NCBI GenBank assembly: GCA_001657385.1
Contig: LYSZ01000002.1
Location: 186,001 to 250,000 of the forward strand
From: Parvularcula sp. BBD 1991-13
GTDB lineage: Bacteria; Pseudomonadota; Alphaproteobacteria; Caulobacterales; Parvularculaceae
Direction: 5' to 3'
DNA length: 64,000 bases
This document shows positions 4,216 to 22,848 of this stretch, piece by piece (positions within the stretch are counted from its first letter, which is position 1; each line of letters begins with the position of its first letter). The notes under the pieces were generated by a model that saw nothing but the letters and a program-made list of their open reading frames with translations, was not told the origin of the DNA and did no database searches. The position numbers and the translations under genes are program-made.

Positions 4216-6243
4216 CTACTTTCTGAGCGCGTTCATGGTGAGCAGGTCATAGGACGCGACGGCGTCGCCATCCTGATTGACCACCGATACGTCCCATCGC
4301 ACCTCGCCGTAATCGGCGTTCCTCGGGGTTTTGCGCTTGACGGTCAGGGTAACCGATATCGCGTCCCCCGGATTGGTCGGTTTCGCGAACCGCAGATTGT
4401 CGAGGCCGTAATTGGCGAGCACCGGGCCCGGCGCGGGTTCCACGAACAGCCCGGCCGCGAAGGACAGGACAAGATATCCATGCGCCACGCGCCCGTCGAA
4501 AAACGGATTGGCCTTTGCCGCCTCTTCGTCCATATGGGCGTAGAAACGATCCCCCGTAAAGGCCGCGAAGCGCTCGATGTCGTCAAGCGTAATCGCGCGC
4601 GCCGCCGTTTCGATCGAATCGCCGACCGCCAGTTCCTCGAAATATTTCGTAAACAGATGTTCCGGGCTTTTCCGCCGCGCTGCGCCCGTGACATAAGCGC
4701 CGGTGACGCGCGACAGCAGACTCGGCGAACCCTGGATTGCTGTCCGCTGCATGTAGTGCGTCACGCCGCGCACGCCGCCCAGCTCCTCGCCCCCGCCGGC
4801 CCGGCCAGGTCCGCCGTGAACCAGTTGCGGCAATGGCGAGCCATGTCCCGTGGAGCTTTTCGCGGTGCTCTCGTCGACGGCGAGCAGCCGGCCGTGATAC
4901 GCGGCGGCTCCGAGGACGAGATGTTTTGCGATATCGACATCGTTCGTAAACACCGAGCCGGCCAGTGAGCCGCCGCCGCGTTTGGCGAGCGCGATCGCCT
5001 CGTTTTCGTCATTATACGCAATAATGGAACTGACGGGTCCGAAGGCTTCAATTTCATGCACGCGCCTGGATGCGCCGGGGTCGCGCACGCGCATGAGGAC
5101 CGGCGACATGAACGCGCCCGCCTCGGCGTCGGCGCCGATGACCTCGACGTTGTGGGCGTCGCCGAAGACGAGGTTCGCTTCTTCAAGCAGGTCGCGCACG
5201 CTGGCGCGCACGCTGGCGCGTTGATCAAGGCTCACGAGCGCGCCCATCCGGACCGCCTCATGGCGCGGATCGCCGACGGTTACGGCCTCAAGCCTGGCGG
5301 CGACGGCGTCGGCGACCGCGTCGGCGGTTTCCGCGGGAACGAGGATTCGCCTTATGGCCGTGCATTTCTGTCCCGCCTTGGCCGTCATCTCGCGAACGAT
5401 TTCCCTGATGAAGGCGTCGAAGACCGGCGCGCCCGGCGCCGCGTCGCGGCCGAGGATCGAACAGTTCAGAGAGTCCTGTTCGGCGATGAACCGCGTGGCG
5501 TTGCGGACGATATTTTCCTTCGTCCGTACAAGCCGCGCCGTTTGCGCCGAACCCGTAAACGCGACGACATCCTGTGAGCCGACAAAATCGAGCAAGCCGT
5601 CCGGCTTGCCGCAGATCAGTTGCAGGGCGCCTTCCGGCAGCAGTCCGGACTCGGCGATCAGCCTGACCATCGCTTCGGCGAGATAGCATGTTTGCGGCGC
5701 GGGCTTCGCGATCGTCGGCGCTCCCGCCAGGAAGGCGGCCGCGAACTTCTCCAGCATGCCCCAGCACGGGAAGTTGAAGGCGTTGATCTGATAGGCCGCG
5801 CCCTCAAGGGACGTGAAAATGTGCTGGCCCGCGAAACTGCCGTCTTTTGACAGGGGCTCGACATCACCGTCGATCATCAGGGTCGCATCCGGCATTTCCC
5901 GACGGCCCTTGGAGGAATAGGCGAACAATGTCCCGATCCCCCCGTCGATATCGATCTGGCTGTCCCGCAAGGTCGCGCCCGTATGATAGGAGAGATCGTA
6001 AAGGCCGTCTTTCCGCTCACTGAGATAAAGCGCAAGGCTTTTCAGGATATGCGCGCGATCGTGAAACGTAAGCGCGCGAAGGGCCGGCCCGCCTGTCTTA
6101 ACCGCATAATTGCGAACGCCTTCGAAATCGAGGCCCGCCGACGAGCATGCGCCGAGCGGCTCGCCCGTGACGGCGCTTGTCAGCGCCAGCGTTTCGCCCC
6201 GGCCCGTCAGCCAGCCGCCTTTGACATAATTCTGTACACTCAT
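4216..6243 (-). CDS. paaZ: oxepin-CoA hydrolase / 3-oxo-5,6-dehydrosuberyl-CoA semialdehyde dehydrogenase
   Basis: 675 aa bifunctional ring-opening enzyme of aerobic phenylacetyl-CoA catabolism. Residues 1-~525 are an aldehyde dehydrogenase domain with Glu255 (AEQDSLNCS) and nucleophile Cys294 (AGQKCTAIRR). Residues ~535-675 are an (R)-specific MaoC-type hydratase domain with Asp565 and His570 (GDRFYAHMDEE) and the FFDGRVAHGY motif. The hydratase domain opens the oxepin ring; the dehydrogenase oxidises the resulting semialdehyde with NADP+. Length matches E. coli PaaZ (681 aa). A strong GGAGGAG precedes ATG 6243. It is the last gene of a five-gene operon, 21 bases after paaG. Confidence 0.96.
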   Translation of the reverse strand: MSVQNYVKGGWLTGRGETLALTSAVTGEPLGACSSAGLDFEGVRNYAVKTGGPALRALTFHDRAHILKSLALYLSERKDGLYDLSYHTGATLRDSQIDIDGGIGTLFAYSSKGRREMPDATLMIDGDVEPLSKDGSFAGQHIFTSLEGAAYQINAFNFPCWGMLEKFAAAFLAGAPTIAKPAPQTCYLAEAMVRLIAESGLLPEGALQLICGKPDGLLDFVGSQDVVAFTGSAQTARLVRTKENIVRNATRFIAEQDSLNCSILGRDAAPGAPVFDAFIREIVREMTAKAGQKCTAIRRILVPAETADAVADAVAARLEAVTVGDPRHEAVRMGALVSLDQRASVRASVRDLLEEANLVFGDAHNVEVIGADAEAGAFMSPVLMRVRDPGASRRVHEIEAFGPVSSIIAYNDENEAIALAKRGGGSLAGSVFTNDVDIAKHLVLGAAAYHGRLLAVDESTAKSSTGHGSPLPQLVHGGPGRAGGGEELGGVRGVTHYMQRTAIQGSPSLLSRVTGAYVTGAARRKSPEHLFTKYFEELAVGDSIETAARAITLDDIERFAAFTGDRFYAHMDEEAAKANPFFDGRVAHGYLVLSFAAGLFVEPAPGPVLANYGLDNLRFAKPTNPGDAISVTLTVKRKTPRNADYGEVRWDVSVVNQDGDAVASYDLLTMNALRK

Positions 6244-6264
6244 TACTGCGTCTCCTCCTGCTTG

Positions 6265-7056
6265 TTACCGTCCGGCGAAACTGGGTGCGCGCTTTTCCAT
6301 GAACGCCGCAACGCCTTCGGCGTAGTCGGCGCTCCGTCCAAGCCGGCGCATCGCATCGCGTTCGGCGTCAAGCGCCTCGTCAAGCGTGTTCAGGCCGGCC
6401 GCGCGGATCCGCGCCTTGGTGGCGGCGAGACCCAGGGTCGGACCGGCGGCGAATTTTCGCAGGAGCGCGCGCGCTTCCTGAACAAGCGCGTCGTCGGAAA
6501 CGCATTTCCAGATCAGGCCCCAGTCTTCCGCGTCCTTCGCCTGCAACGGCTCGCCGGTGAGCGCCAAACCGAGCGCGCGCGCCTGGCCCGCCAGCCGCGG
6601 CAGGATCCATGTGCCTCCGGAGTCGGGGATCAGCCCGATATTGGCGAAGGACTGGATGAACGTCGCGCTTTGCGCGGCGAAAACCACGTCGCACGCCAGG
6701 GCGATATTCGCGCCGGCGCCCGCCGCCACGCCGTTGACCGCGCAGATGACCGGCATGGGCAGGGATGTCAGCCTGCGGATGAGAGGGTTGTAGTATGTCT
6801 CGACGGACTCGCCGAGATCGACCGCGTCGCCGCCCGGCGAGACGGCGCGGTCGGACAGGTCCTGACCCGCGCAGAAACCGCGCCCCGCGCCGGTGATCAT
6901 CAACGCCCTGACGGCTTCGTCGTTTTCCACGAGATGCAGCGCGTCCCGCACTTCTTCGTGCATCCGGGCGGTAAAGCTGTTGAGCCGTTCAGGCCGGTTC
7001 AGGGTGAGCGTCGCCGCGCCGTCCTCCAGCTCGAAACGGATCGTTTCATAGGTCAT
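6265..7056 (-). CDS. paaG: ring 1,2-epoxyphenylacetyl-CoA isomerase (enoyl-CoA hydratase family)
   Basis: 263 aa crotonase-fold protein. It closely follows remembered E. coli PaaG: TLTLNRPERLNSF at the N-terminus, TGAGRGFCAGQDLSDR (oxyanion loop), VICAVNGVAAGAGANIALACD, the catalytic-Asp motif GLIPDSGGTW, and GRSADYAEGVAAFMEKR at the C-terminus. The enzyme isomerises ring-1,2-epoxyphenylacetyl-CoA to oxepin-CoA, the substrate of PaaZ encoded next to it. AGGGAGAAG precedes the ATG. It sits 18 bases after an osmC-family gene. Confidence 0.95.
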   Translation of the reverse strand: MTYETIRFELEDGAATLTLNRPERLNSFTARMHEEVRDALHLVENDEAVRALMITGAGRGFCAGQDLSDRAVSPGGDAVDLGESVETYYNPLIRRLTSLPMPVICAVNGVAAGAGANIALACDVVFAAQSATFIQSFANIGLIPDSGGTWILPRLAGQARALGLALTGEPLQAKDAEDWGLIWKCVSDDALVQEARALLRKFAAGPTLGLAATKARIRAAGLNTLDEALDAERDAMRRLGRSADYAEGVAAFMEKRAPSFAGR

Positions 7057-7074
7057 TGTTCTTCTCCCTGAGCT

Positions 7075-7521
7075 TCAGCTGCTTGAAAAGACGATTTCCG
7101 TAGAAACTGAATTCGCGATGAAGCACTGCCTGTGCGCCTCTTCGTGCATCGCGCGCAGGTCGTCGTCACCGGGGGCGTCGCCGTCGAATTCGATCTCGGG
7201 AGAAAGCGTCACCCTCGTGATCGCCATGGCGCCGCTATTCGTTTTTCCCAGCTCGCCTTCGGCGTCGTCCACATAGGACAGAACCCTGTAGCCCCGCTTG
7301 CAGGCCACCATCAGGAAAGTCAGCAAATGACAACTGGACAGCGCGCCGACGAAGGCTTCCTCCGGGTCCATGCAATCCGGGTCGCCGAGATAATGCGGCG
7401 CCGCCGACAGCGTCACCTGCTGGCCGCCATCCAGCCGCCAATGGTGGCGCCTGTTATAGGTTTTGTACGTGAACGCTTTCGCGCCGGCTTCCCATTCAAC
7501 AAGGGCGCGATGCACCGTCAT
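7075..7521 (-). CDS. OsmC family protein
   Basis: 148 aa from ATG 7521, starting one base after the upstream E2 stop codon, with GGGGGGAA overlapping that stop. OsmC/Ohr proteins are thiol peroxidases or related redox proteins. The two expected cysteines are visible in ALSSCHLLTFLMV and EEAHRQCFIANS, and the MDPEEAFVGAL helix is typical. Its location between a 2-oxo acid dehydrogenase E2 and paaG suggests a role in this pathway, perhaps peroxide protection or a non-redox thiol function. That is inference. Confidence 0.85.
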   Translation of the reverse strand: MTVHRALVEWEAGAKAFTYKTYNRRHHWRLDGGQQVTLSAAPHYLGDPDCMDPEEAFVGALSSCHLLTFLMVACKRGYRVLSYVDDAEGELGKTNSGAMAITRVTLSPEIEFDGDAPGDDDLRAMHEEAHRQCFIANSVSTEIVFSSS

Positions 7522-7522
7522 G

Positions 7523-8809
7523 CTATTCCCCCCGCCAGTCGGCGATCGTGTCGGTGAAAACGGTGAGGAATTTGTTTGTCTGGTAACCATCCAGGACCCG
7601 GTGGTCGATCGACAGGGTCACGAACGCCCTCAGCCGGATGGCGATGACGTCGCCCTTGTCCGTCTCTTCCACGACCGCGCGTTTTTCCATTTTCCCGAGC
7701 CCCAGGATCGCCGACTGCGGCTGATTGATGATGACCGGGGCCGCGAGCAGGCTTCCGCTTACGCCGTGATTTGAAATGGTGAAGGTGCCGCCCTGCACGT
7801 CTTGCGGCGTTAGCGCGCCGGACTTGGCCCGCGTTGTCAGATCCTGCAGCCGCGTCGCAATGCCGAGGAGATTCAAATCCTGCGCCTCGTGGATGACCGG
7901 CGCCACGAGGCCGTCATCGCCGAGGGCGACGCCGACGCCGATATTGAGACTCTTGTAGATATCGATCCGGTCCTCGTGGAACCGGCTGTTCACCTCTGGG
8001 ACGGCTTTCAGGGCTTCAATCGCCGCCCGGACGAAATAGGCGGTGTAGGTCAGGTTCACGCCTTTTTCCGCGTACGCCGCCTTGCGCGCGCGCCGGTCCG
8101 CCGCGATCGCCGTCAAGTCCGTTTCGAAAAGAGCGGTGACATGGGGGGCGACGCTGACGCTCTTGTGCATATGCGCCGCGATCTGTTTGCGCATCGGCGT
8201 GTGCGGAACCTGAACGACGCCCGCGCCGGACAGGGCCGGGTGCGCGCCCGGCGCGGGTGCGGCTGCGGCCCCCGTCGCGGGCGGCGCGGCCGGCGCGGTC
8301 AATACGGACGGGGCAGGCTGGGCCGCGCGGGACGGCGCTGTTTCCAGGTGATCAAGGACGTCCTGTTTTGTCAGCCGGCCGTGTTTTCCCGTTCCCGTAA
8401 TGGTCTCGGCCGCGAGATTGTGTTCATTCAGCAGACGGCGCACCGCGGGACTGTGACGGGGGACCTTCGTTTCGTCGGCCGGGGTGGCCGGCGAGGCTTT
8501 CGCGGCGCCGTTTGCGGCGTTTTCCCCGCCGCCGTCCGAACCCGGGCGCGCCTTATCGCCGGCGGCGGCGGGCGCAAGCTGCGCGATTACCGACCCCGGT
8601 TCGATCTCCTCGTCGATCTCGCGCACGAGCGCGTGCAGAACCCCGTCCGCCGGCGCGCATACCTCCACCGCAACCTTGTCGGTTTCAAGCTCGGCGACCG
8701 GTTCGTCCTTACACACTGCATCTCCCGGCGATTTCAGCCAGGAGCGCAGGATCGCGAAGGTTCCTTCCTGGTGGTCGGCGGGCGTGGCGATGTCGATTAA
8801 TTCGGCCAT
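7523..8809 (-). CDS. 2-oxo acid dehydrogenase complex dihydrolipoyl acyltransferase (E2)
   Basis: 428 aa with the full E2 architecture. The lipoyl domain is at residues ~3-78 with the lipoylated Lys in ETDKVAVEV. An Ala/Pro-rich linker is followed by a peripheral-subunit (E3)-binding domain at ~115-155 (RHSPAVRRLLNEHNL, GRLTKQDVLDHL), a second Ala/Pro linker, and the catalytic domain (~200-428) ending with SIDHRVLDGYQTNKFL. It transfers the acyl group from E1-bound thiamine diphosphate to CoA. The gene begins 5 bases after the fused E1. No E3 gene is present, so it probably uses a shared lipoamide dehydrogenase. Family resemblance is to branched-chain E2; context suggests phenylpyruvate. Confidence 0.92.
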   Translation of the reverse strand: MAELIDIATPADHQEGTFAILRSWLKSPGDAVCKDEPVAELETDKVAVEVCAPADGVLHALVREIDEEIEPGSVIAQLAPAAAGDKARPGSDGGGENAANGAAKASPATPADETKVPRHSPAVRRLLNEHNLAAETITGTGKHGRLTKQDVLDHLETAPSRAAQPAPSVLTAPAAPPATGAAAAPAPGAHPALSGAGVVQVPHTPMRKQIAAHMHKSVSVAPHVTALFETDLTAIAADRRARKAAYAEKGVNLTYTAYFVRAAIEALKAVPEVNSRFHEDRIDIYKSLNIGVGVALGDDGLVAPVIHEAQDLNLLGIATRLQDLTTRAKSGALTPQDVQGGTFTISNHGVSGSLLAAPVIINQPQSAILGLGKMEKRAVVEETDKGDVIAIRLRAFVTLSIDHRVLDGYQTNKFLTVFTDTIADWRGE

Positions 8810-8814: not shown

Positions 8815-10914
8815 CTAGAATTCCAAAAGCTCGGTGATGGCGGCGCGGATATCGTCCATGGACGGAACAACCGCGTTCAGCAGGACAGGGCTGTGCGGGC
8901 TCGGCACGTCCGGCATCGTCAGCCGGCGGACAGGCGCGTCAAGATCCAGAAAGACTTCCTCGGTGACAGTCGCGGAGATTTCCGCGCCGAAACCGGCCGT
9001 CATCGTGTCCTCATGGACGATCAGGCACCGGCCGGTGCGGCGCACCGACGACAGCACCGCGTCCTTGTCCCACGGAGAAAGCGTGCGGAGATCGATCACC
9101 TCAACCCGGCCGTTCTCCGCAAGGGCGGCGGTCTCGCAGCGCTCCACCATGGCGCCCCAGGTAACGACCGTAAGTCTTTCCCCCGGCGTAACTTTCCGTG
9201 CGCGTCCGAACGGAAGCGCGTAGTCGTCTCCCGGATATGGGCGGCGCGCCGACATGGCGTCGAGCATGTTGCGGTGTTCGAAGAAAATCACGGGGTCGTC
9301 GCCGCGCATCGCCGAGCGCAGAAGGCCGACCGCGTCCTCTGCGTTCGACGGCATGGCGAGTTTCCAGCCGATGGAATGGAGCCATTGCACCTCGTTCATC
9401 TGGCTGTGCCAGGGATCGCCGCATTTAAAGAAGCCGCCCGGCATACGAATGACCATCGGCGCCGAGAACCGGTTATCCGTCCGCCAGCGAACGGTTCCGC
9501 AATCGTTGATCTGTTCCGTCGCGGGTTCGGCGTATTTTCGAAACTGGATTTCCGGAACCGGCACCAGCCCGGCCATCGCCATGCCGACGGCGCGCCCGAT
9601 GATCCCTTCCTCGGAAAGGCTGGTGTCGAACACGCGCTCGGTTCCGTATTTTTCCTGCAGGCCCATGGTGACCGCGTGCACGCCGCCCTTGGGGCCGACA
9701 TCCTCACCGAAAACGGCGATCCGCGAATTCACGGCGAGTTCATGGTCGAGCGTCATCCGGATCGCCGTCACCATGTTGATGCGCTTGCCCGTCGGCGCCG
9801 GCGTGTCAGCGCCCTTCGCCGGCGCAACGCCTTCCGCCGCCATGCCGCCGATTAGCGCCGGGCGGTCCGCCTCGGCGAAGACATGCGTCGAGACGCTTGC
9901 AGTGTCCGGCGCGGCTTTGGCCTCCGCCGCGGCGAGCGCCGCCTCGATGCGCCGGTCGGCTTCTTTCTCAAGCCGGGCCCATTCGGCGCTGGCGACGCCC
10001 TTGTCCGAGATATGTTTGCGCAGCCTGGGCAGGGGATCGCGCGCCCATTCCGCCGCGACATGATCGTCGCTCTTGTAAGCTTGCGTGTCTTGCGCGGAGT
10101 GTCCGTTCAGGCGCGGGACGGTCAGACGCAGCAGAGCCGGACCATGGCCTCCGCGCACGTGCAGGACAGCGTCGTCGATCATCCGACCGGCCTCTTTCGG
10201 GTCCGTGCCGTCGCCGTCATGGATCTTGAGGTTTTTAAACGAGGCGAGGTTTTCGGCGATATTCGCGCCCGGCGTCTGGAAATCCGACGTCACGGAGATG
10301 CCGAAGCCGTTGTCTTCGATAAAGAATAGCATCGGCAGGCGGAGCGTGGTCGCAATGGTCAGCGCCGCCCAGAACCCGTTCGTCGCCACCGAGGCTTCGC
10401 CGCCATGCGCGACCGCGATCGCCCCCTCGTAGGCGACGTCGCCGAGCACCTTGCGCCGATAGTCGATCGCCTGCGCCCAGCCTGCCGCCGGGGTGTACTG
10501 AGCGCCGACGCCGCCGCACATGGGCAGGGCCGTCGGTCCGCCCGGGTTCGGAAAGTTGAACACCGCGCCGATGTCGCGGCCGTTGCTGTATCCGCCTTCC
10601 TTCGCCATGCAGGATGAAAGCGCGTCTTCAATCGGCATGCCGAGCGACAGGACCATCGGCCTCGACCTGTAGTACCCGGTCACCGCGTCATGGGGGTGCG
10701 TCAGGCGTTGGGCGAGGAGAATTTGCGACAGCTCATGACCGCGCGCCGAGAACTGATAGAGAATCTTTTTTTGCGGGACGAGCGTTTTCTCTTCCAGGTC
10801 GTCCAGCTTGCGCGATGTCAGGAGGGTCAGCGCGATCCCGGCCCAATCATGCGCGGGCAGTTCGTTCGATGCGTGTCTGGCGGGCGCGTTGTCTAGGGGG
10901 GCTGTTGCGGACAT
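8815..10914 (-). CDS. fused E1 alpha-beta 2-oxo acid dehydrogenase
   Basis: 699 aa from ATG 10914 (AAGG ribosome site). Residues ~20-340 are E1-alpha with the thiamine-diphosphate region GGEASVATNGFWAAL...EDNGFGISV. Residues ~375-699 are E1-beta (MVTAIRMTLDHELA, GEDVGPKGGVHAVTMGL, DTSLSEEGIIGRAVGMA). An Ala/Pro-rich linker joins them. Alpha-beta fusion is known in branched-chain/2-oxoisovalerate dehydrogenase E1 enzymes. E1 decarboxylates a 2-oxo acid and passes the acyl group to the E2 encoded next. The gene heads an operon ending in paaG-paaZ. I infer phenylpyruvate as the likely substrate; branched-chain 2-oxo acids remain possible. Confidence 0.9.
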   Translation of the reverse strand: MSATAPLDNAPARHASNELPAHDWAGIALTLLTSRKLDDLEEKTLVPQKKILYQFSARGHELSQILLAQRLTHPHDAVTGYYRSRPMVLSLGMPIEDALSSCMAKEGGYSNGRDIGAVFNFPNPGGPTALPMCGGVGAQYTPAAGWAQAIDYRRKVLGDVAYEGAIAVAHGGEASVATNGFWAALTIATTLRLPMLFFIEDNGFGISVTSDFQTPGANIAENLASFKNLKIHDGDGTDPKEAGRMIDDAVLHVRGGHGPALLRLTVPRLNGHSAQDTQAYKSDDHVAAEWARDPLPRLRKHISDKGVASAEWARLEKEADRRIEAALAAAEAKAAPDTASVSTHVFAEADRPALIGGMAAEGVAPAKGADTPAPTGKRINMVTAIRMTLDHELAVNSRIAVFGEDVGPKGGVHAVTMGLQEKYGTERVFDTSLSEEGIIGRAVGMAMAGLVPVPEIQFRKYAEPATEQINDCGTVRWRTDNRFSAPMVIRMPGGFFKCGDPWHSQMNEVQWLHSIGWKLAMPSNAEDAVGLLRSAMRGDDPVIFFEHRNMLDAMSARRPYPGDDYALPFGRARKVTPGERLTVVTWGAMVERCETAALAENGRVEVIDLRTLSPWDKDAVLSSVRRTGRCLIVHEDTMTAGFGAEISATVTEEVFLDLDAPVRRLTMPDVPSPHSPVLLNAVVPSMDDIRAAITELLEF

Positions 10915-11247
10915 GCGAAACCTTGAAACTACAATCAGCGTTTCGCGCCAGCCTGTCATGACGATCCGGCGGGATATTGAAGAATTGTGCCCCGGGTTCG
11001 GCGGAACGCAAGAATTTTCAAGAAGCAAGAGCGCTGACGGCCATATCCTGCGCGCCGGTATCGGGAGGTTTTATGCTGACAGGTTTCGCAACGCCGCCGG
11101 GCGCAGCGGCCAAGTCCGGCCCGCTCGGCTTTCCGCGAGGGCGCCATGACCGCCGGTTTGACGATTGATGATCTGAAGCCGCTTCGCGCTTTCACCGCGC
11201 AACAGGCGAAACAGGGTGAACGGCGACATAGGGATAGGGAGAGTGCT
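10915..11247. other. divergent intergenic region between E1 operon and proline dehydrogenase
   Basis: 333 bases with no convincing gene. It should hold the promoters of both flanking units. On the minus strand TTGCGT and CACAAT, 16 bases apart near 11000, form a weak sigma70-like candidate. I found no copy of the ACCGNNCGNNCGGT site seen near paaA and paaH. Confidence 0.4.
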
Positions 11248-12207
11248 ATGATCCGGCGCCACTGGCAGTCCATGATGATCGCGCTGGCGCGATCGAGCGG
11301 CTGGAAGAATTTCATGCAGAACTGGGGCGCCACGAGCGCGCTGGCCTCGCGTTATGTCGGCGGCGCCGATCCCGCGAGCAGCATCGCCACCGCGAAGCGG
11401 CTTGCGGATCAGAAAATCGCCAGTTCGCTTTTCTATCTCGGGGAATATGTGGATACGGACGATCTCGTTCGGGAAAACGTCGAAAACAAGATCAACGTGG
11501 CGCGGGCCTTGGGGCGGGCCGGTCTCGACGTTCATGTGTCCGTGGACCCCACCCAGGTCGGGTGCTCCATGGACTGGGACATGGGCGCCGACAACATCGC
11601 CAGGATCGCTGAGGCGGTGCGCGGCGCCGCGGGCAATGCGCCCGGCGTTCACTGCCTCATGCTCGACATGGAAGACTCCGCGGTCACCCAGAAAACGATC
11701 GACCTCTTCGATGATCTCCATGGCAGGGGCTTTCTCATGGCGCAGACGCTTCAGGCCTATCTCAAGCGCACCCGCGCCGACATGGAGCGGAAAATTGAAC
11801 AGGGCGCGAAAGTCCGCCTCGTCAAGGGCGCGTTTGCGGCGCCGCCTGAAATATCGTTTTCCACCCATGCGCAGATCAAGGCCAACTACCAGAAACTGAT
11901 CGATCTGATGTTGTCGGAAAAAGCGAAGGCGTCTGGATTTTATCCGATCTTCGCCACTCATGATCACAGATTGCATGAATACGCCTGCGAGGCTGCGCGC
12001 CGCAACGGATGGGAGCGCGGGCGCTACGAATTTGAAATGCTGTATGGCGCGCGCGACGACGTCGCCCGCTCCCTTGCCGATGCGGGCGAGCGGGTTCGCC
12101 TTTATCTGCCCTTCGGCGAAGACTGGTGGCCTTATGCGGTCAGGCGCATCGGCGAGAACCCGTCGAATGCGATGCTTCTCGGGCGCGCCGTCCTTGCCCG
12201 GGCCTGA
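11248..12207 (+). CDS. proline dehydrogenase
   Basis: 319 aa from ATG 11248, preceded by AGGGAGAG. The in-frame ATG at 11146 would add 34 residues with no family similarity. The PRODH beta/alpha barrel is recognisable: SSLFYLGEYV near the start, CLMLDMEDS, RLVKGAFAAPPE, and the C-terminal signature YLPFGEDWWPYAVRR with ENPSN. It is the short, monofunctional form oxidising L-proline to pyrroline-5-carboxylate with FAD and feeding electrons to quinone; no P5C dehydrogenase domain is attached. The neighbour is a convergent AraC regulator 21 bases away. A PutP-type symporter lies 9 kb upstream but is not linked. Confidence 0.9.
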   Translation: MIRRHWQSMMIALARSSGWKNFMQNWGATSALASRYVGGADPASSIATAKRLADQKIASSLFYLGEYVDTDDLVRENVENKINVARALGRAGLDVHVSVDPTQVGCSMDWDMGADNIARIAEAVRGAAGNAPGVHCLMLDMEDSAVTQKTIDLFDDLHGRGFLMAQTLQAYLKRTRADMERKIEQGAKVRLVKGAFAAPPEISFSTHAQIKANYQKLIDLMLSEKAKASGFYPIFATHDHRLHEYACEAARRNGWERGRYEFEMLYGARDDVARSLADAGERVRLYLPFGEDWWPYAVRRIGENPSNAMLLGRAVLARA

Positions 12208-14969: not shown

Positions 14970-16172
14970 ATGACAGCCTATATCTGCGACGGCGTGAGGA
15001 CGCCAATCGGCCGCTATGGCGGCGCCCTGTCTTCGGTGCGCGCCGATGACCTTGCGGCGGCGCCGATCAAGGCCCTGATGGCGCGCCATGACAGGGTCGA
15101 CTGGTCGTCCGTAGACGACGTTATTCTCGGCTGCGCCAATCAGGCCGGCGAAGACAATCGCAATCTTGCGCGCATGGCCGCTTTGCTCGCAGGGCTGGGC
15201 GAGACGGTTCCCGGCGTGACCGTCAACCGTCTGTGCGGTTCGGGCATGGACGCCGTCGCCGTCGCGGCGAACGCCATCGCCGCCGGCGCGGGCGATCTTT
15301 TCATCGCCGGCGGCGCGGAGAGCATGTCCCGGGCGCCGTTGGTGATGCCGAAAGCGGACAAGCCTTTTTCGCGCAATGCCGAAGTGTACGACACGACGAT
15401 CGGCTGGCGGTTCGTCAATCCGGCGTTGAAAGCGCAATACGGCGTCGATTCCATGCCGGAGACCGCTGAAAACGTCGCCGAGGAATTCCGTGTCTCGCGG
15501 GACGACCAGGATGCGATGGCGCTCCGCTCCCAGCAGCGCGCCGCTGCGGCGCGGGACAGCGGTTTCTTCGACGGCGAAATCGTTCCCGTGACCATACCGG
15601 TCCGGCGGGGCGAGGACGTCGTGGTCCGCGAGGACGAACATCCGCGGGCGGATACGACGATGGAAAGGTTGGCCGGGCTGAAAACACCGTTCCGCGAAAA
15701 CGGGACCGTTACGGCGGGCAATGCGTCGGGGGTCAATGACGGCGCCGCAGCGTTGTTGATCGCCTCGGAAAAGGCCGTCGCGGAAAACGGCCTGACGCCG
15801 ATGGCGCGGGTGGTGACAAGCGCGGTCGCCGGCGTCGCGCCGCGGATCATGGGCGTCGGCCCCGCGCCGGCGGCGCAAAAAGCCCTGGCGCGCGCGGACC
15901 TGTCGCTTGACCGGATCGACGTCATTGAACTCAACGAAGCGTTCGCCGCCCAGGGGCTCGCGGTCTTGCGCCAATTGAATCTGCCTGACGACGCCGATCA
16001 CGTTAACCCGAACGGCGGCGCTATCGCGCTTGGCCATCCTCTCGGCATGAGCGGCGCGCGCCTCGTCCTCACCGCCGCGCGGGAGCTGGAACGACGCCAT
16101 GGAACTTATGCGCTCTGTACAATGTGCATCGGCGTCGGTCAGGGCGTGGCGATGATCATAGAACGGATCTGA
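14970..16172 (+). CDS. paaJ: 3-oxoadipyl-CoA / 3-oxo-5,6-dehydrosuberyl-CoA thiolase
   Basis: 400 aa with a strong AGGAGGGAGG site. Thiolase catalytic residues are visible: Cys89 ([12 protein letters not shown]), His356 ([14 protein letters not shown]) and Cys386 ([10 protein letters not shown]). The [22 protein letters not shown] start and the [19 protein letters not shown] segment fit the PcaF/PaaJ branch. It performs the two thiolytic cleavages of the pathway, yielding acetyl-CoA and finally succinyl-CoA. It forms a two-gene unit with paaH and is convergent with the aminotransferase. Confidence 0.94.
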
Positions 16173-16226: not shown

Positions 16227-17432
16227 CTAATCGGCCAGTTCACCTGCGAGCGCTTCGGCAAAGCGCTCGATATTGCTGTTGTTCAGGGCCGCGAAATTGA
16301 TCCTGCCGGAGCCGGGCATGTACACCGCCCGGCGTTCGCGCAACCGCGCGCCGGCGCCGTCCCGAAGCGGCAGGATTGAGAACATCCCCTTCTGGTCGGT
16401 GAGGAAAGAGAAGCTCCGTGTGTTCATCATCTGGGTCAGCGCCCGGTGAAGCCCGCGCCGGGCTTCCTCGATTTGCCGGCGCATGGCCGTCAGCTCTTCG
16501 GACCAGGTTCGGCGCAATCCCGGGTTCGTCAGGATGGCGTTGACGACGGCCTGGCCATGCGCAGGCGGCATGGAGTAAACGGCGCGCGTTGCGTCGGCGA
16601 TGTGAAGCGCCGTTCTGTTGGCGGCCCGCCGATCGTCGCAGACCGCCAGCAGGCAACCGGCGCGCTCCCTGTATAGCCCGAAGTTTTTCGAGCATGAATA
16701 GGAGACGAAGAACTCCGATTGTCGTTCCATGAAAAGCCGCGGGCCGAACAGGTCCGCTTCCGGCTCGGCGCCGAAGCCGTGATAGGCGATATCGAGAAAG
16801 GCGATAAGCGCGCGCTCTTCAAAGACGGCCGCAAGCTGAAGCCATTGCGCGTCAGTCAGGTCCGCCCCCGTCGGATTGTGGCAGGGGCCCTGAAGGATGA
16901 CGATATCGCCGGCGCGCGCCCGGGTCAGGCTTGCAACGAAACCGTCGAAGTCGAGCGTCTGAGAGGCCGGGTCCCAGTATCGGTATTCCAGCGCCTCAAA
17001 GCCCGCCGCCGCCGCAATATGGCGGTGGTTGATCCAGGTCGGCGCGCTTATCCACACCCGGCCATCCGGCAGCGCGCGGCGCGCCACGGCCATGCCGGCC
17101 CACAGGGCGCCGCATCCGCCGGGCGTCGCGTAGGAGACCAGGCGTTCCCCGAGGTCCGCACGCAGATCGTCTCCAAGGCAAAAGCGCTCTATCGCCGCGC
17201 AGAAATCCGTATTGCCGCGCTGGCCCTCATACGCCTTCGTCGCCTGGCCGGCCGCGAGGCGCCTTTCCGCTTCCCGCACCGCGTCCATAACCGGCGTCAC
17301 GCCGGCGTCATTGCGATAGACGCCCACGCTGACGTCGATCTTCTCGGCGCGCATATCGGCGCCGGCCCGCGCCATCATGTCGAGCAGCGGGTCAGGGGTT
17401 AAGGCGTGTAGGGCGGAAAGATACGATGACAT
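16227..17432 (-). CDS. class I aminotransferase, aspartate/aromatic amino acid type
   Basis: 401 aa from ATG 17432. It follows the AspC/TyrB pattern: VSVGVYRNDAGVTPVMDAVREAE, AYEGQRGNTDF, LQGPCHNPTGADLTDAQW and FLDIAYHGFG. The PLP lysine is Lys249 in SYSCSKNFGLYRERAG, and FSFLTDQKGMFS is near the C-terminus. The family converts aspartate, tyrosine or phenylalanine and 2-oxoglutarate to the 2-oxo acid and glutamate. It lies inside the paa region and shares the 208-base divergent promoter region, with its operator, with paaA. That makes phenylalanine to phenylpyruvate the attractive role. Sequence alone does not exclude aspartate. Confidence 0.88.
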   Translation of the reverse strand: MSSYLSALHALTPDPLLDMMARAGADMRAEKIDVSVGVYRNDAGVTPVMDAVREAERRLAAGQATKAYEGQRGNTDFCAAIERFCLGDDLRADLGERLVSYATPGGCGALWAGMAVARRALPDGRVWISAPTWINHRHIAAAAGFEALEYRYWDPASQTLDFDGFVASLTRARAGDIVILQGPCHNPTGADLTDAQWLQLAAVFEERALIAFLDIAYHGFGAEPEADLFGPRLFMERQSEFFVSYSCSKNFGLYRERAGCLLAVCDDRRAANRTALHIADATRAVYSMPPAHGQAVVNAILTNPGLRRTWSEELTAMRRQIEEARRGLHRALTQMMNTRSFSFLTDQKGMFSILPLRDGAGARLRERRAVYMPGSGRINFAALNNSNIERFAEALAGELAD

Positions 17433-17640: not shown

Positions 17641-18633
17641 ATGTACACCACTGATTTCAGCCGCCAGACGCAATCGGACGCGTCGCCCGGACCGGCCGAA
17701 GACGCGGCGCAGAACGACCGCTTCCAGGCCCGGATCGACGCCGACCAGACGATCGAACCCAAGGACTGGATGCCCGCCGCCTATCGCAAGACGCTCATCC
17801 GTCAGATGTCCCAGCACGCCCATTCCGAAGTCGTCGGCATGCTGCCCGAAGCCAACTGGATCACCCGCGCGCCGACCCTCAAGCGCAAGGCGATCCTCCT
17901 CGCCAAGGTGCAGGATGAAGGCGGCCACGGTCTTTATCTCTACAGCGCGGCCGAAACCCTCGGCGTTTCGCGCGACGACATGATCGACGCGCTGCATAAG
18001 GGGAAGGCGAAATATTCCTCGATCTTCAATTATCCGACGCTCACCTGGGCCGACATCGGCGCCGTCGGCTGGCTTGTGGACGGCGCGGCGATCATGAACC
18101 AGGTTCCCCTGCAACGCTGTTCCTACGGGCCTTATGCGCGCGCCATGGTGCGCATCTGCAAGGAGGAAAGCTTTCACCAGCGCCAGGGCTTCGAGATCAT
18201 GGCGACGCTCATGAAGGGGACCGACGCGCAGAAGGCCATGGCCCAGGACGCCCTCGATCGCTGGTGGTGGCCGTCGCTGATGATGTTCGGGCCGAGCGAC
18301 GATAACTCGCCGAACTCGGCGCAGTCGATGAAATGGCGCATCAAACGCAATTCCAACGACGAGCTTCGTCAAAAGTTCGTGGACGTCACCGCGCCGCAGG
18401 CCGAAGCCATCGGCCTTGTCGTTCCCGATCCCGATCTTTCCTGGAACGAAGCGCGCGGCCATTACGATTTCGGCGATATCGATTGGGACGAGTTTTTCGC
18501 CGTCATCGCCGGCGACGGTCCGTGTAACGCGGACCGCATGGCGGCGCGCCGCCGCGCCCATGACGAGGGCGCCTGGGTGCGCCGCGCCGCGCTCGCCTAT
18601 GACAGGAAAACGCGGGCCAAGGCGGCCGCATAA
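17641..18633 (+). CDS. paaA: phenylacetyl-CoA 1,2-epoxidase catalytic subunit
   Basis: 330 aa from ATG 17641, preceded by AGAGGA. This is the oxygenase subunit of the multicomponent epoxidase PaaABCE, which adds one oxygen atom from O2 across the ring of phenylacetyl-CoA. Ferritin-like di-iron ligands are visible in [16 protein letters not shown] and [13 protein letters not shown]. Other family segments are [30 protein letters not shown] and [16 protein letters not shown]. It is slightly longer than E. coli PaaA (309 aa) through an N-terminal extension. It is the first gene of paaABCDEF-paaR. Confidence 0.97.
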
Positions 18634-18648
18634 GCGATGGAGCGCATC

Positions 18649-18933
18649 ATGTCTGGAGAATGGCCCCTCTACGAAGTTTTCGTCCGTTCCAGAAACGGTT
18701 TGTCGCACAAGCATGTCGGCAGCGTGCATGCGCCGGACGGTCATGCCGCCGTCGAAGCGGCCCGCGACGTCTACACCCGCCGCCTGGAAGGCGTCAGTCT
18801 CTGGGTCGTTCCATCCAGGGAAATAACAGCTGCCGATCCCGACGCCGCCGGCATGCTTTACGAACCGGCGAAAGACAAGATCTATCGCCACCCGACCTTT
18901 TACGAGATCCCGGAAAACGTGAAGAACCTCTAG
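18649..18933 (+). CDS. paaB: phenylacetyl-CoA epoxidase subunit PaaB
   Basis: 94 aa from ATG 18649, with GGAG six bases upstream; the ATG at 18637 has no ribosome site. The sequence WPLYEVFVRSRNGLSHKHVGS, YTRRLEGVSLWVVPS and YRHPTFYEIPE is near-diagnostic for PaaB. This small subunit bridges PaaAC heterodimers in the epoxidase complex. Length equals E. coli PaaB (95 aa). Confidence 0.96.
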   Translation: MSGEWPLYEVFVRSRNGLSHKHVGSVHAPDGHAAVEAARDVYTRRLEGVSLWVVPSREITAADPDAAGMLYEPAKDKIYRHPTFYEIPENVKNL

Positions 18934-18942: not shown

Positions 18943-19707
18943 GTGACGGACCGCATAGAAGACGCCAAGACGATTTTCTGTCTGCGCCAGGGCGATGCGT
19001 GTCTCGTCCTCGGCCAGCGCCTCGCCGAATGGTGCGGCCATGGCCCTGCGCTCGAACTCGATCTCAGCCTGTCCAATCTCGCGCTGGACCAGATCGGCCA
19101 GGCCCGTCTGTTCCTTCAGTATGCCGGCGAACTGGAAGGGAAGGGACGCGATGAAGACATGCTCGCTTACGGCCGGGACGCCTTTGACTATCGCAACGTC
19201 CTGCTGGTGGAACAGCCCAATGGCGATTTCGGGCGGACCGTTCTGAGACAGTTTCTGTTCGCCGCTTATCAACGCCGCCTTTACGACGCCCTGTCCGCGT
19301 CCGCCGACAAGCGCCTTGCCGCCATTGCGCAAAAGTCACTGAAGGAGGCGCAGTATCACGAGCGCTTCTCGCGCGACTGGGTGATCCGTCTCGGCGCCGG
19401 CACGGAAGAAAGCCATGACCACATGCAACAGGCGCTGGAGGCGCTTTGGCGCTTCGTCGGCGAACTCTTCGAGCGGGACGACGTCGAAACGGCGCTGGTC
19501 GCCGAAGGCGTGCTTCCCGACATGGCAGACGCGGAAGAGTCATGGCGCGCGGATATGCAGGCGACGTTCGCGCAGGCCGGCCTCACGCCGCCGGACGTGC
19601 GGCGCGGCGTCGCCGGCGGGCGGGCCGGACGCCATACCGAGCATCTGGGCCGCCTTCTGTCGGATTTGCAGTTCCTGCAGCGCGCCTATCCCGGCGCGCA
19701 ATGGTGA
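18943..19707 (+). CDS. paaC: phenylacetyl-CoA epoxidase structural subunit
   Basis: 254 aa starting at GTG 18943 behind GGAGGGGG. PaaC is the ferritin-like structural partner of PaaA. Visible family blocks are GQRLAEWCGHGPALELDLSL, LALDQIGQARLFLQYAGELEG, FLFAAYQRRLYDALSAS, LKEAQYHERFSRDWVIRLG and GRHTEHLGRLLSDLQFLQR. It overlaps the start of paaD by several bases. Confidence 0.96.
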   Translation: MTDRIEDAKTIFCLRQGDACLVLGQRLAEWCGHGPALELDLSLSNLALDQIGQARLFLQYAGELEGKGRDEDMLAYGRDAFDYRNVLLVEQPNGDFGRTVLRQFLFAAYQRRLYDALSASADKRLAAIAQKSLKEAQYHERFSRDWVIRLGAGTEESHDHMQQALEALWRFVGELFERDDVETALVAEGVLPDMADAEESWRADMQATFAQAGLTPPDVRRGVAGGRAGRHTEHLGRLLSDLQFLQRAYPGAQW

Positions 19708-20255
19708 CGCGCATGGAACGCGCTCCCGAAAAAACAGCAAACGGAAAATCCGGCACCGGACGGCAAAACCGGGAAGCGGCGGTCTGGCGTCTTCTGGAAA
19801 CCGTTCCGGACCCGGAGATCCCGGTGCTGACGGTGGTCGACCTCGGCGTCGTGCGGGCCGTTCGCGTCGATGAGACCGTCTCGCCCGCAGTGGTTCACGT
19901 CGACATGACGCCCACCTATTCGGGCTGCCCGGCCATCGACGCCATGGGGATGTCCGTGCGCGCAGTTCTTGAAGCCGCCGGCTTCGCCGTCAGGTTGAAA
20001 CAGGTGCTGTCTCCGCCCTGGACGACCGACTGGCTGACGCAGGAGGCCCGCCGGAAGCTGAAAGCCTACGGCATCGCGCCGCCGGCCGGCGCGAGCGCCG
20101 ACAAGGCGCGCCTTTCCGGCGCGCCGCGCCCGGCCTGTCCGCAATGCGGCAGTCACCATACGGAGCTTATCAGCGAATTCGGCTCAACCGCCTGCAAGTC
20201 GCTCCACCGTTGCCGAAACTGCGCGGAGCCTTTCGACCATTTCAAGTGCCACTGA
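19701..20255 (+). CDS. paaD: phenylacetate degradation protein PaaD (Fe-S maturation, MIP18/SufT family)
   Basis: 184 aa. The N-terminal half (~residues 20-105) is a MIP18/DUF59 domain (LLETVPDPEIPVLTVVDLGVVR, TPTYSGCPAIDAMGMSV). The C-terminus has two CxxC pairs (PACPQCGS and HRCRNCAEPFDHFKCH). PaaD is needed for PaaABCE activity, probably in maturing the iron centres. ATG 19701 overlaps the paaC stop; GTG 19704 or ATG 19713 are alternatives. About 20 residues longer at the N-terminus than E. coli PaaD. Confidence 0.94.
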   Translation: MVTRMERAPEKTANGKSGTGRQNREAAVWRLLETVPDPEIPVLTVVDLGVVRAVRVDETVSPAVVHVDMTPTYSGCPAIDAMGMSVRAVLEAAGFAVRLKQVLSPPWTTDWLTQEARRKLKAYGIAPPAGASADKARLSGAPRPACPQCGSHHTELISEFGSTACKSLHRCRNCAEPFDHFKCH

Positions 20256-20303: not shown

Positions 20304-21392
20304 ATGAAACTGTTCTATCCCCTTCCCATCCGCGACATCCGGCGCGAGACCGCCGACGCCGTCTCCCTTGCGTTCGACGTGCCGGAGGCGCTGCGCGAAG
20401 AATTCCGGTTCACCCAGGGCCAGTACCTCACCTTTCGTCACGAAGTGGACGGCGAGGAGTTAAGGCGGTGCTATTCGATTTGCGCCGGCGTCGACGACGG
20501 CGAGCTGCGCATCGCGGTGAAGGCCGTCGCGGGAGGCCGGTTTTCGACCTTCGCCAACGCCGCGCTCTCCGTGGGCGATGTTCTGCATGTCTTCCCGCCC
20601 CTCGGCGACTTTCACACCGAGCTGGACCCGGCCGCCTCGCGCCGCTACGTCGCTTTCGCCGGCGGCTCCGGGGTGACGCCCATCCTGTCGCTCGTCAAGA
20701 CGACCCTGGCGCGGGAGCCGACCTCGTCTTTCTCCATTTTTTACGGCAACCGCGACAGCCGCTCGATCATCTTCATGGAAGAACTCGCGGCCCTGAAGGA
20801 CCGTTTTCTCGACCGCCTCGCCGTGACGCACATCCTCTCCGAGGACGTGCAGGAAATCGACCTTTTCAACGGCCAGCTCGACCGGGAGAAATGCAACGAG
20901 ATCGTTTCAGCCATTCCCCGGCTCGACGACGTGCATGCTTTTTTCATCTGCGGACCCGCGCTGATGATGGACGCCGCGGAAGCGGCCCTCGTCGACGCGG
21001 GCGTCGGGAAGGACAGGATCCTGATCGAGCGTTTTTCCAGCGACGGGCCGTCCGCCTCGGTCGATCCCGTCGCGCCGCCGTCCGCCGCGCGCCGCGCCGT
21101 CGCCGAAGACGCCCTCGCCAGGGTGAGCGCGGTCATCGACGGACGGCGGATCGAGTTCGGTTTCGGCCCGGCCGACGCAAGCGTTCTCGAAGCCGGGCAC
21201 GCCGCCGGCGCGCCGCTGCCCTTCGCCTGCAAGGGCGGGGTCTGCGGCGCCTGCCGCGCCAGGGTCCTTGAGGGCGAGGCGGAGATGAAGGTCAATTACG
21301 CGCTGGAAGAGGACGAGGTGGCGGCGGGCCACATCCTCACATGCCAGGCGGTTCCCAGGAGCGAGACCCTGGTGGTGAGTTTCGATGAGTAA
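20304..21392 (+). CDS. paaE: phenylacetyl-CoA epoxidase reductase subunit
   Basis: 362 aa two-domain reductase. The FAD/NADPH (ferredoxin-NADP reductase-like) part spans ~1-235, with RRCYSICAGVDDGELRIAVK, FAGGSGVTPILSLVKTTL and FFICGPALMMDAAE. The C-terminal plant-type [2Fe-2S] ferredoxin domain (~275-362) carries CKGGVCGACRARV and the distal Cys in ILTCQAVP. It passes electrons from NADPH to PaaA. Its stop overlaps the paaF start by 8 bases. Confidence 0.96.
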   Translation: MKLFYPLPIRDIRRETADAVSLAFDVPEALREEFRFTQGQYLTFRHEVDGEELRRCYSICAGVDDGELRIAVKAVAGGRFSTFANAALSVGDVLHVFPPLGDFHTELDPAASRRYVAFAGGSGVTPILSLVKTTLAREPTSSFSIFYGNRDSRSIIFMEELAALKDRFLDRLAVTHILSEDVQEIDLFNGQLDREKCNEIVSAIPRLDDVHAFFICGPALMMDAAEAALVDAGVGKDRILIERFSSDGPSASVDPVAPPSAARRAVAEDALARVSAVIDGRRIEFGFGPADASVLEAGHAAGAPLPFACKGGVCGACRARVLEGEAEMKVNYALEEDEVAAGHILTCQAVPRSETLVVSFDE

Positions 21393-22164
21393 CCCGGCCG
21401 GACAACTGCTGATCGACGCGCCGGCCCCGTCGATCCGGGTACTGACGCTCAATCGTCCGGATCAGCGCAATGCGGTGCGCACGTCGCTCCTGGAAGACAT
21501 CGCCGATGCGCTCCATGACGCGGACGCCGATGCGGCGGTGCGCGCCGTCGTCATCACCGGCGGCCCCGACATCTTCGCCGCCGGCGCCGACATCCGCGAA
21601 ATGGCGGCCATGTCCGCCGTCGACGCCGCCGGGGACAGCCGCCCGGAATTCTGGCGGCGCATCGCCGCGTTCGCCAAACCCCTGATCGGCGCGGTCAACG
21701 GCTATTGCCTGGGCGCCGGGAACGAACTTCTCCTGCGGTGCGACCTCGCTGTCGCCGGGCCGACCGCCAGGTTCGGTCAGCCGGAAATCAATGTCGGCGT
21801 CATGCCCGGGGCCGGCGGCGCGGCGCTCCTGCCGCGGTTGATCGGTCCGAAGCGCGCCGCGCGTCTTGCGATGCTGTGCGAATTCCTCACTGCGCACGAG
21901 GCGTTGTCCTGCGGGCTGGTTTCCCATGTGAGCGACAAGGACGCATTGGCGGACGCGATCAGGCTTGCCGAGAAACTGAGCGTCCGGGCGCCGCTCGCCG
22001 TGGAGGCGGTCAAGGACATGATCCGCCATGGCGGCGACATGACCGCGGCCCAGGCGCTCGCCTATGAGCGCAAGCACTTTTCGCTGCTGTTTGCGACGGA
22101 CGACAAGCGCGAGGGCGTCGATGCGTTTCTGGGCAAGCGCAAGCCGGCGTTCAGGGGCGTCTAG
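21385..22164 (+). CDS. paaF: 2,3-dehydroadipyl-CoA hydratase
   Basis: 259 aa crotonase-family protein. VLTLNRPDQRNAVRTSLLE, FAAGADIREMAAM, AAFAKPLIGAVNGYCLGAGNEL, FGQPEINVGVMPGAGG and EGVDAFLGKRKPAFRG match E. coli PaaF. Both catalytic glutamates expected of enoyl-CoA hydratases are present (GAGNEL and QPEIN), unlike PaaG with its Asp. It hydrates 2,3-dehydroadipyl-CoA to 3-hydroxyadipyl-CoA for PaaH. Confidence 0.93.
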   Translation: MSNPAGQLLIDAPAPSIRVLTLNRPDQRNAVRTSLLEDIADALHDADADAAVRAVVITGGPDIFAAGADIREMAAMSAVDAAGDSRPEFWRRIAAFAKPLIGAVNGYCLGAGNELLLRCDLAVAGPTARFGQPEINVGVMPGAGGAALLPRLIGPKRAARLAMLCEFLTAHEALSCGLVSHVSDKDALADAIRLAEKLSVRAPLAVEAVKDMIRHGGDMTAAQALAYERKHFSLLFATDDKREGVDAFLGKRKPAFRGV

Positions 22165-22239
22165 AAGCCGCGCGCCGCCCGCGCCGGTCCGGATCGCCTG
22201 CGCTGGACGGCCGGCCCGGACGCCGTTAAGCGTATCGGC

Positions 22240-22848
22240 ATGGCCCGGACCCTCGCCCCCGACTATGACGACCGTCGGCAGCATATCGTCGATCACGCCG
22301 CCCGCCTTTTCGCGGCCGAAGGATTTCACAAGGCTTCCATGTCCGGCATTGCGCGCGCCTGCGACACGTCGAAGTCCGCCCTTTATCACTATTTTCCGTC
22401 AAAGGAAGATATTCTTTACGCGGTCATGCACGACCATACGGAGCTGCTGCTCGGGATCGCGGACGAGGCGATCGGCCGGGGCGGCGCGCCGGCCGAACAG
22501 CTTCTCGCCGTCACCCGGTCCCTGATGCAGGTATACGCCACCGCCCAGGCGCGCCATGTGGTCCTGCTCAACGAACTCGGCAGCCTGCCGGAGGAGGCGC
22601 GCCGCACGATCGTCGATATGCAGAACCGGATTCTCGACCGCATTCAGTCGGTCCTGGAAGCGATCGAGCCCGGCCTGAAGAAAAAGACGAAACTGCGCCG
22701 GCCGGTCGCGATGATCTTTATGGGAATGATCAACTGGACGTACACATGGTTCGACGCCGACGGTCCCGTCAGTCCCGACGCGTTCGCCGAGCTTGTCGTC
22801 GCCATCCTCCTCAACGGGTTGCCGGGATCGACGTCTTCCGGCCGGTGA
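22240..22848 (+). CDS. paaR: TetR family regulator, probable phenylacetyl-CoA-responsive PaaR
   Basis: 202 aa. The N-terminal TetR helix-turn-helix is plain: AARLFAAEGFHKASMSGIAR, ACDTSKSALYHYFPSKEDILY. The C-terminal ligand domain is of the TetR_C_33-like type (EEARRTIVDMQNRILDRI, INWTYTWFDADGPVSPDAFAEL). It is the last gene of the paa operon, 75 bases after paaF. Two ACCG-type palindromes at the paaA and paaH promoters are its likely operators. TetR-type PaaR is the usual regulator outside the gamma-proteobacterial PaaX group. Effector inferred as phenylacetyl-CoA. Confidence 0.88.
   Translation: MARTLAPDYDDRRQHIVDHAARLFAAEGFHKASMSGIARACDTSKSALYHYFPSKEDILYAVMHDHTELLLGIADEAIGRGGAPAEQLLAVTRSLMQVYATAQARHVVLLNELGSLPEEARRTIVDMQNRILDRIQSVLEAIEPGLKKKTKLRRPVAMIFMGMINWTYTWFDADGPVSPDAFAELVVAILLNGLPGSTSSGR

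Follow-up and report, generated by a model that had tools for sequence, protein, structure and literature searches.

A fused 2-oxo acid dehydrogenase E1 and the adjacent E2 acyltransferase, encoded inside a phenylacetyl-CoA degradation (paa) cluster of Parvularcula sp. BBD 1991-13, are candidate components of a phenylpyruvate dehydrogenase complex that would share its E3 with other complexes. A probability of about 0.8 is given to this function, which is predicted from gene context and protein sequence. The stretch of DNA analysed, hereafter the window, comprises 64,000 bases (186001-250000 of contig C32) of a genome (G000) of 4.24 Mb in 36 contigs that is 97.95% complete. A first-pass annotation of the window had proposed that phenylalanine is converted through phenylpyruvate into phenylacetyl-CoA, and comparison with other genomes supports this proposal. 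Synteny with paa genes, a genome-wide tie to PaaA, runs of E1-E2 with an aromatic aminotransferase, palindromes shared with paa genes, a second operon copy on contig C22 and a separate set resembling branched-chain 2-oxo acid dehydrogenase (BCKDH) in the same genome together point to phenylpyruvate as the substrate.

The aromatic aminotransferase would convert phenylalanine into phenylpyruvate, which E1 would decarboxylate with thiamine diphosphate (ThDP). E2 would then transfer the phenylacetyl group from lipoyl-lysine to CoA, both of these steps being predicted from domain anatomy, and E3, a dihydrolipoyl dehydrogenase assumed to be shared from elsewhere, would reoxidise lipoate with NAD. 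The resulting phenylacetyl-CoA would be handed to PaaABCDE-PaaG-PaaZ-PaaF/H/J and the ATP-dependent activation of free phenylacetate would be saved. No protein of the genome exceeds the cut-off for PaaK, the phenylacetate-CoA ligase, so that E1-E2 is the only identified entry to the paa pathway, and probably the sole one in this genome.

The paa cluster and its E1 and E2 proteins

The paa cluster occupies positions 4216-22848 of the window and forms four blocks (Table 1). The first is an operon-like run on the minus strand, paaZ-paaG-osmC-E2-E1, with spacings of 5 (E1/E2), 1 (E2/osmC), 18 (osmC/paaG) and 21 bases (paaG/paaZ). The second (paaH and paaJ, plus strand) is separated from E1 by a proline dehydrogenase-like gene and an AraC regulator; the third is the aromatic aminotransferase gene on the minus strand and the fourth the plus-strand series paaA-B-C-D-E-F-R. 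Genes were named by family scans against curated cut-offs. PaaE, PaaH (for TIGR02279) and PaaF fall below theirs and no TetR model is passed, hence these assignments are partly positional. The window holds PaaABCDE, PaaG and PaaZ, with PaaE 2 bits short of its cut-off and PaaB named from its position and its resemblance to the PaaB of C22. The core paa genes were placed where the first-pass annotation had put them (paaZ, G, H-like, J, A-E and F-like by family scans, paaB through its open reading frame), and recomputed spacings of the E1 run were identical to those it gave. The aminotransferase is divergent from paaA across a PaaR-like operator, as had been described, an exact palindrome lying between the two. 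The proposed TetR-type paaR is backed by TetR-family matches at the expected place, although every TetR model remains under its cut-off.

The window E1 carries E1_dh, Transket_pyr and Transketolase_C domains on one chain, i.e. an alpha-beta fusion, and E2 combines lipoyl, E3-binding and catalytic acyltransferase domains. This make-up fits a ThDP-dependent 2-oxo acid dehydrogenase complex. The E2 sequence retains ETDKVAV and SIDHRVLDG intact, which we take to be the lipoyl-lysine and catalytic-histidine motifs, and E1 retains the presumably catalytic histidines in DPWHS and GHS. Both proteins resemble BCKDH in their E1 alpha/beta domains and E2 architecture, and differ from it in the fusion of E1, in their own family motifs and in their paa context. 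These motifs (SARGH[DE], YYRSRP, GRDIG and GDPWHS) are conserved in the E1 family and were not seen in the BCKDH-like set of the genome. The closest solved relatives of the E1 beta half are pyruvate dehydrogenase (PDH) and BCKDH E1 beta chains. In alignments of E1 with the Thermus BCKDH E1, read by eye, Phe66a stood opposite Tyr and Met128a opposite Ile, Tyr95a and Tyr86b were kept and the region of His131a was replaced; these five positions are assumed here to be substrate-pocket sites. Part of the pocket therefore seems to differ from that of the Thermus branched-chain enzyme, which agrees with a changed specificity and does not single out phenylpyruvate.

Nine E1_dh matches were found in the genome. 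On contig C4, a three-gene set codes for an E1 alpha of 410, an E1 beta of 338 and an E2 of 473 residues; all its E1 NCBIfam matches are under cut-off and we take it, by size and N-terminus, to be the classical branched-chain complex. C4 carries another three-gene set, and C23 encodes a fused E1 that is unrelated (30% identical). The conserved motifs of the window E1 family are missing from these competing E1 proteins.

Recurrence with the phenylacetyl-CoA pathway

A pattern scan with E1 over an 84,980-species collection returned 355 relatives, the best 80 of which were kept and underlie all locus counts. Locus markers were set by identity to window proteins, the Lrp and PaaK clusters being named by eye from one member each. 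E2 is adjacent to E1 in 79 of the 80 loci. Strict paa markers are present in the fetched DNA of 52 loci, and in 36 of the 49 that have near-full flanks. An Lrp/AsnC-type gene lies at most 1.5 kb from E1 in 58 loci; 20 loci contain an aromatic-type aminotransferase and 15 a PaaK-like gene. In 16 of the 20 loci with the aminotransferase, it comes after E2 and is read in the same direction, at distances ranging from an overlap of the mechanical frames to 24 bases in 15 of them and at 142 bases in the other; it precedes E1 on the same strand in two (L012, L057) and stands on the other strand in two (L013, L021). Both aminotransferases that were checked, those of L041 and L080, exceed the cut-off for aromatic transaminases. 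The best solved relative of the L041 protein is chain 1ay4_A, an aromatic amino acid aminotransferase, as it is for the window aminotransferase. Judging from record titles and tree labels, the hosts of E1 include Acetobacteraceae, Hyphomonadaceae, Parvularculaceae, Sphingomonadales, Rhizobiaceae, Pseudomonas, Steroidobacteraceae, Acidobacteriota and Marinimicrobia. The full order E1-E2-osmC-paaG-paaZ, whose recurrence in related genomes the first-pass annotation had put up for counting, was not found as such: none of the 80 loci showed an osmC relative at the settings used.

The co-occurrence data argue that the arrangement is not due to chance. PaaA was looked for in the genomes of 50 of the 80 E1 relatives, a set picked by closeness to the window E1 and not by paa content, and is encoded in 49 of them. 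A class-wide sample of 387 genomes, each at least 90% complete, contains PaaA in 52 and E1 (E <= 1e-100) in four, all of which are among the 52 (hypergeometric 2.9e-4; by genus 0.0022). Without the window genome the figures are 3/3 (0.0022) and, by genus, 2/2 (0.016). Two genomes are common to both samples (G019/G321 and G035/G062, with identical PaaA coordinates). E1 also occurs in 92 of 72,556 plasmid records, 76 of them from Sinorhizobium. Among the matches listed, paaA lies about 42 kb from E1 on the same replicon in S. meliloti CP140934.1 and about 2 kb from E1 in the Rhizobiaceae replicons NZ_CP032690.1 (Rhizobium) and NZ_CP023068.1 (S. sojae).

Contig C22 of the window genome (L118, G000:C22:1-11153) carries a second copy. 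This contig of 11,153 bases, with a GC content of 65.2% compared with 65.7% in the window, encodes in one direction the end of a condensation domain, a CmlA-type diiron hydroxylase, a fused E1, E2, PaaA, B, C, D and E, and a TubC-docking plus condensation domain. Its E1 is 58% identical to the window E1 and its PaaB 56.8% identical over 88 residues; no relatives of the window PaaG, PaaZ, PaaH, PaaJ, PaaF or aminotransferase were found on it by tblastn. Of the independent evidence for the substrate, the C22 copy carries the most weight, because E1-E2 is linked there only to the epoxidase. C22 is a short contig and could be a contaminant (contamination of the genome is estimated at 1.11%), although AMP-binding matches lie within open frames of at least 900 residues on several other contigs. 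C22 looks like a fragment of a nonribosomal peptide synthetase (NRPS) gene cluster whose products may make phenylacetyl-CoA and epoxidise it. Were this so, the C22 module would draw on primary metabolism, with no need of free phenylacetate, to supply an epoxidised or oxepin-type phenylacetyl unit, and the operon suggests a ready-made supply of a tropone/oxepin precursor for a natural product. A wider and more tentative idea, to which we give slightly less than even odds, is that the paa pathway has in the E1-E2 family a portable module for phenylpyruvate dehydrogenation, controlled by Lrp- or PaaR-type regulators. On this view the module rendered PaaK unnecessary in several lineages and entered the C22 NRPS cluster together with PaaABCDE.

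Palindromes also connect E1 with paa genes. The one between the aminotransferase and paaA matches TTGACCG-N2-CG-N2-CGGTY exactly, in the form ATTGACCGnnCGnnCGGT. A similar core is known for other PaaR proteins, and PaaR is the putative ligand here. Homologues of the window paaR (45-50% identical) adjoin E1 in L024, L031, L042, L049, L053, L056 and L068. They are divergent from E1 in L024, L049, L053, L056 and L068, where an exact-core palindrome stands 7-53 bases before the E1 frame start; L049 and L056 have a further palindrome before paaA, which in L056 starts about 40 bases past this second palindrome and is cut by the locus end. The longer form of the palindrome was met in nine records including the window (1.86 Mb examined, with overlaps). 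It precedes paaA in L014, L049, L056 and the window, paaG or paaH in L009, L018, L023 and L039, and E1/paaR in L053 and L056. The exact core occurs 20 times in the 80 loci; 13 occurrences were assigned to the vicinity of the start of a paa gene, paaR or E1, and seven were not. Within the window, the core ACCGNNCGNNCGGT with at most one mismatch is not enriched (6 found versus 8.4 expected by shuffling), so that only the position and recurrence of the palindromes count; the longer form with two mismatches was found 6 times versus 2.8 expected, several of these matches overlapping.

Alternative explanations and the place of PaaK

The alternative that survives best, although unlikely, overlaps with the proposed function: the complex would take a wider range of aromatic 2-oxo acids, such as 4-hydroxyphenylpyruvate and indolepyruvate, and phenylacetyl-CoA would be one product of several. 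The aminotransferase family is broadly aromatic and some E1 units with Lrp stand apart from paa genes, both in line with this view, but the genome-wide tie is to the phenylacetyl-CoA epoxidase and the palindromes are common to paa genes.

Less probable still is that free phenylacetate is activated in this genome too, by a PaaK-like or other ligase, and that E1-E2 is an extra route. The absence of paaK from the window, noted in the first-pass annotation, holds, and the whole-genome search it called for returned six matches to the PaaK model, none of them reaching the 646.3 bits required by TIGR02155. The highest score, 158.2 bits, belongs to a protein encoded about 5 kb left of the window (G000:C32:180026-181264; gene L007:11903-13324, equal to C32:179903-181324). 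This neighbour, together with 30 matches to AMP-binding PF00501 in the genome, 28 of them over cut-off and counted irrespective of function, is what speaks for a ligase. Its score is however far below the cut-off, and among the 52 PaaA-bearing genomes of the class sample matches of 140-271 bits often occur together with a PaaK-like protein that scores above 550 bits (e.g. G062, G177). Since such proteins coexist with PaaK, the 158.2-bit protein looks like a member of another family. Its gene sits between MmgE/PrpD-like and amidase-like genes, which also argues against a role as phenylacetate ligase; the same island contains CoA-transferase-like and acyl-CoA dehydrogenase-like genes, all these neighbours being named by eye.

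That E1-E2 acts on branched-chain substrates or on 2-oxo acids in general, and lies in the paa cluster by chance, is very improbable: the structural relatives of the beta half and the frequent Lrp-type neighbours, typical of bkd operons, would suit it, but PaaA in nearly all E1-bearing genomes, the repeated paa synteny, the E1-E2-aminotransferase runs, the second copy beside paaABCDE and the separate BCKDH-like set all oppose it.

A number of observations count against a phenylpyruvate dehydrogenase that replaces PaaK. In the window E1, GEA...DN stands in place of GDG...NN, presumably the ThDP/Mg motif of E1; over 84 family rows this motif reads GDA in 53, GDG in 16, GEA in 14 (window included) and GEG in one. 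The window aminotransferase lies outside the E1 operon and no palindrome of the PaaR type was found before the window E1. One E1-bearing genome of the 50, a metagenome-assembled genome (G012), has no PaaA match, and the two annotated plasmid regions inspected, of Sinorhizobium meliloti and Shinella, show Lrp-E1-E2 without paa neighbours (Lrp by annotation in these two). Phenylalanine has a second possible fate, as a phenylalanine 4-monooxygenase is found over cut-off elsewhere in the genome. The genome also contains three TPP_enzyme_N matches: one is an acetolactate synthase over cut-off, the second is pyruvate oxidase-like and misses all listed cut-offs, and the third passes the cut-off of PRK07586 (named acetolactate synthase), matches benzoylformate decarboxylase only in part and below cut-off, and may act as an aromatic decarboxylase. 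As for PaaK, 33 of the 50 E1-bearing genomes encode a PaaK-like protein that scores at least 550 bits (27 over cut-off). Most of the E1 genomes that miss PaaK are metagenome-assembled, and the window genome itself is not entirely complete. Within the class sample, two of the four E1-bearing genomes lack PaaK, as do six of the 48 paa genomes without E1; these numbers differ too little to be informative, so that PaaK loss also has other explanations. The E1 tree lends no support to a single loss of PaaK or a dated replacement: it does not group the PaaK-less loci, whose labels require 15 changes where shuffled ones give 16.5, and 92 shuffles out of 500 were as low.

The remaining 17 of the 50 E1-bearing genomes have no PaaK match at E <= 1e-60. 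PaaK is missing in 11 of the 16 E1 genomes with an aminotransferase in the locus and in 6 of the 34 without (Fisher 0.0009, uncorrected for kinship). PaaK-less records titled as strains are, besides the window genome, those of Sphingorhabdus soli (L013) and Steroidobacter gossypii (L079). As 33 genomes keep PaaK, E1-E2 is usually an added entry, and the most plausible reading is that in some lineages this additional route into the paa pathway has come to be the sole identifiable one; the bypass of PaaK conceived in the first-pass annotation therefore stands for the PaaK-less genomes and not for the majority. Six genomes of the class sample (G072, G115, G213, G293, G360, G421), five of them in one family (f67), have PaaA, no PaaK match above 271 bits and no E1.

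Known systems and features of the window

In Phaeobacter inhibens the direct conversion is reportedly carried out by an enzyme of the indolepyruvate ferredoxin oxidoreductase type, unlike the window genome, in which no IorA was found. The two routes have in common that phenylalanine would reach phenylacetyl-CoA via phenylpyruvate with phenylacetate skipped, as described in the accessible parts of the P. inhibens studies (PMC7497051, PMC8283759). An E1-type complex has been suggested for the same reaction in Streptomyces pristinaespiralis, where the pyruvate dehydrogenase-like PglB/PglC would convert phenylpyruvate into phenylacetyl-CoA for phenylglycine biosynthesis (PMC7089894, PMC10685826). 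According to the text available, PglB/PglC differs from the fused window E1 in having two separate E1 subunits and a biosynthetic operon; compared by described function and not by sequence, it feeds phenylglycine whereas the paa operon drains the same precursor. The window shares PaaABCDE, PaaG, PaaZ, the lower genes and a TetR-type PaaR with the canonical paa pathway as outlined in the sources at hand (PMC13186573, PMC2653477, PMC9493321), and departs from it in having no PaaK over cut-off and E1-E2 inside the cluster.

The chemistry of direct phenylpyruvate to phenylacetyl-CoA conversion is already known. What appears to be new is the family of enzymes itself, together with the fusion, the association with paa clusters and the use in PaaK-less genomes. 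No description of a fused E1-E2 in a paa cluster was found in the available text of the open-licence literature searched. A study of catabolic pathway gaps treats phenylacetate or phenylacetyl-CoA as intermediates of phenylalanine degradation, and the part of it at hand contains no mention of an E1/E2-type complex in this role (PMC9007349). A survey, as far as its accessible text goes, defined pathway genomes by PaaK, with 853 predictions in 825 of 6,536 genomes, and then proposed PaaA plus PaaC as markers (PMC13186573). Genomes like this one would be missed when surveys start from PaaK, or would be misread as those of phenylacetate users though they may degrade phenylalanine only. The candidate enzyme family makes the poorly resolved entry step from phenylpyruvate to phenylacetyl-CoA testable.

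Table 1. Features of the paa cluster in window coordinates, with family scores in bits versus curated cut-off.
Feature	Position	Strand	Basis
paaZ, bifunctional oxepin-CoA hydrolase / semialdehyde dehydrogenase	4216..6243	-	TIGR02278 993.6 vs 562.8
paaG, 1,2-epoxyphenylacetyl-CoA isomerase	6265..7056	-	TIGR02280 401.4 vs 345.15
OsmC-like protein, in operon-like run	7075..7521	-	PF02566 55 vs 27.5; gaps 1 and 18
E2 dihydrolipoyl acyltransferase	7523..8809	-	PF00364, PF02817, PF00198; ETDKVAV and SIDHRVLDG motifs
Fused alpha-beta 2-oxo acid dehydrogenase E1, proposed phenylpyruvate dehydrogenase	8815..10914	-	PF00676, PF02779, PF02780; family motifs; open frame reaches 11028, likely start ATG at 10914
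Proline dehydrogenase-like protein, divergent from E1	11146..12207	+	PF01619 108 bits
AraC-family regulator	12229..13065	-	PF12833, PF02311
paaH-like 3-hydroxyacyl-CoA dehydrogenase	13373..14911	+	NF006124 533.4 vs 508; TIGR02279 480 vs 669.4
paaJ / 3-oxoadipyl-CoA thiolase	14970..16172	+	NF006551 707.4 vs 605; TIGR02430 695.9 vs 597
Aspartate/aromatic aminotransferase	16227..17420 (part used as query)	-	NF006719 (aromatic transaminase subfamily) 456.2 vs 377; open frame extends to 17762
PaaR-type palindrome, between aminotransferase and paaA	17573..17590	.	exact match to TTGACCGNNCGNNCGGTY
paaA, epoxidase subunit	17641..18633	+	TIGR02156 539.7 vs 280; ATG at 17641, open frame from 17527
paaB	18637..18933	+	98-residue open reading frame between paaA and paaC; likeness to C22 (L118) copy, 56.8% identity over 88 residues
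paaC	18943..19707	+	TIGR02158 289.9 vs 133.35
paaD	19704..20255 (start approximate; mechanical open reading frame from 19446)	+	TIGR02159 180.7 vs 108.15
paaE reductase	20304..21392	+	TIGR02160 418.7 vs 420.8, just under
paaF-like enoyl-CoA hydratase	21385..22164	+	NF007239 276.3 vs 371, under
paaR-like TetR-family regulator	22240..22848	+	TetR-family matches, all under cut-off; homologues adjoin E1 elsewhere

The proline dehydrogenase-like gene was not seen to recur in the 80 E1 loci, and a gene 54% identical to the AraC regulator lies upstream of E1 in L010. Further along the window, at 26739-30466, peroxiredoxin-like, ArsR-like, metallo-beta-lactamase-fold and 579-residue FAD oxidoreductase-like fusion genes, named by eye from their translations, resemble a sulfide/persulfide oxidation cluster.

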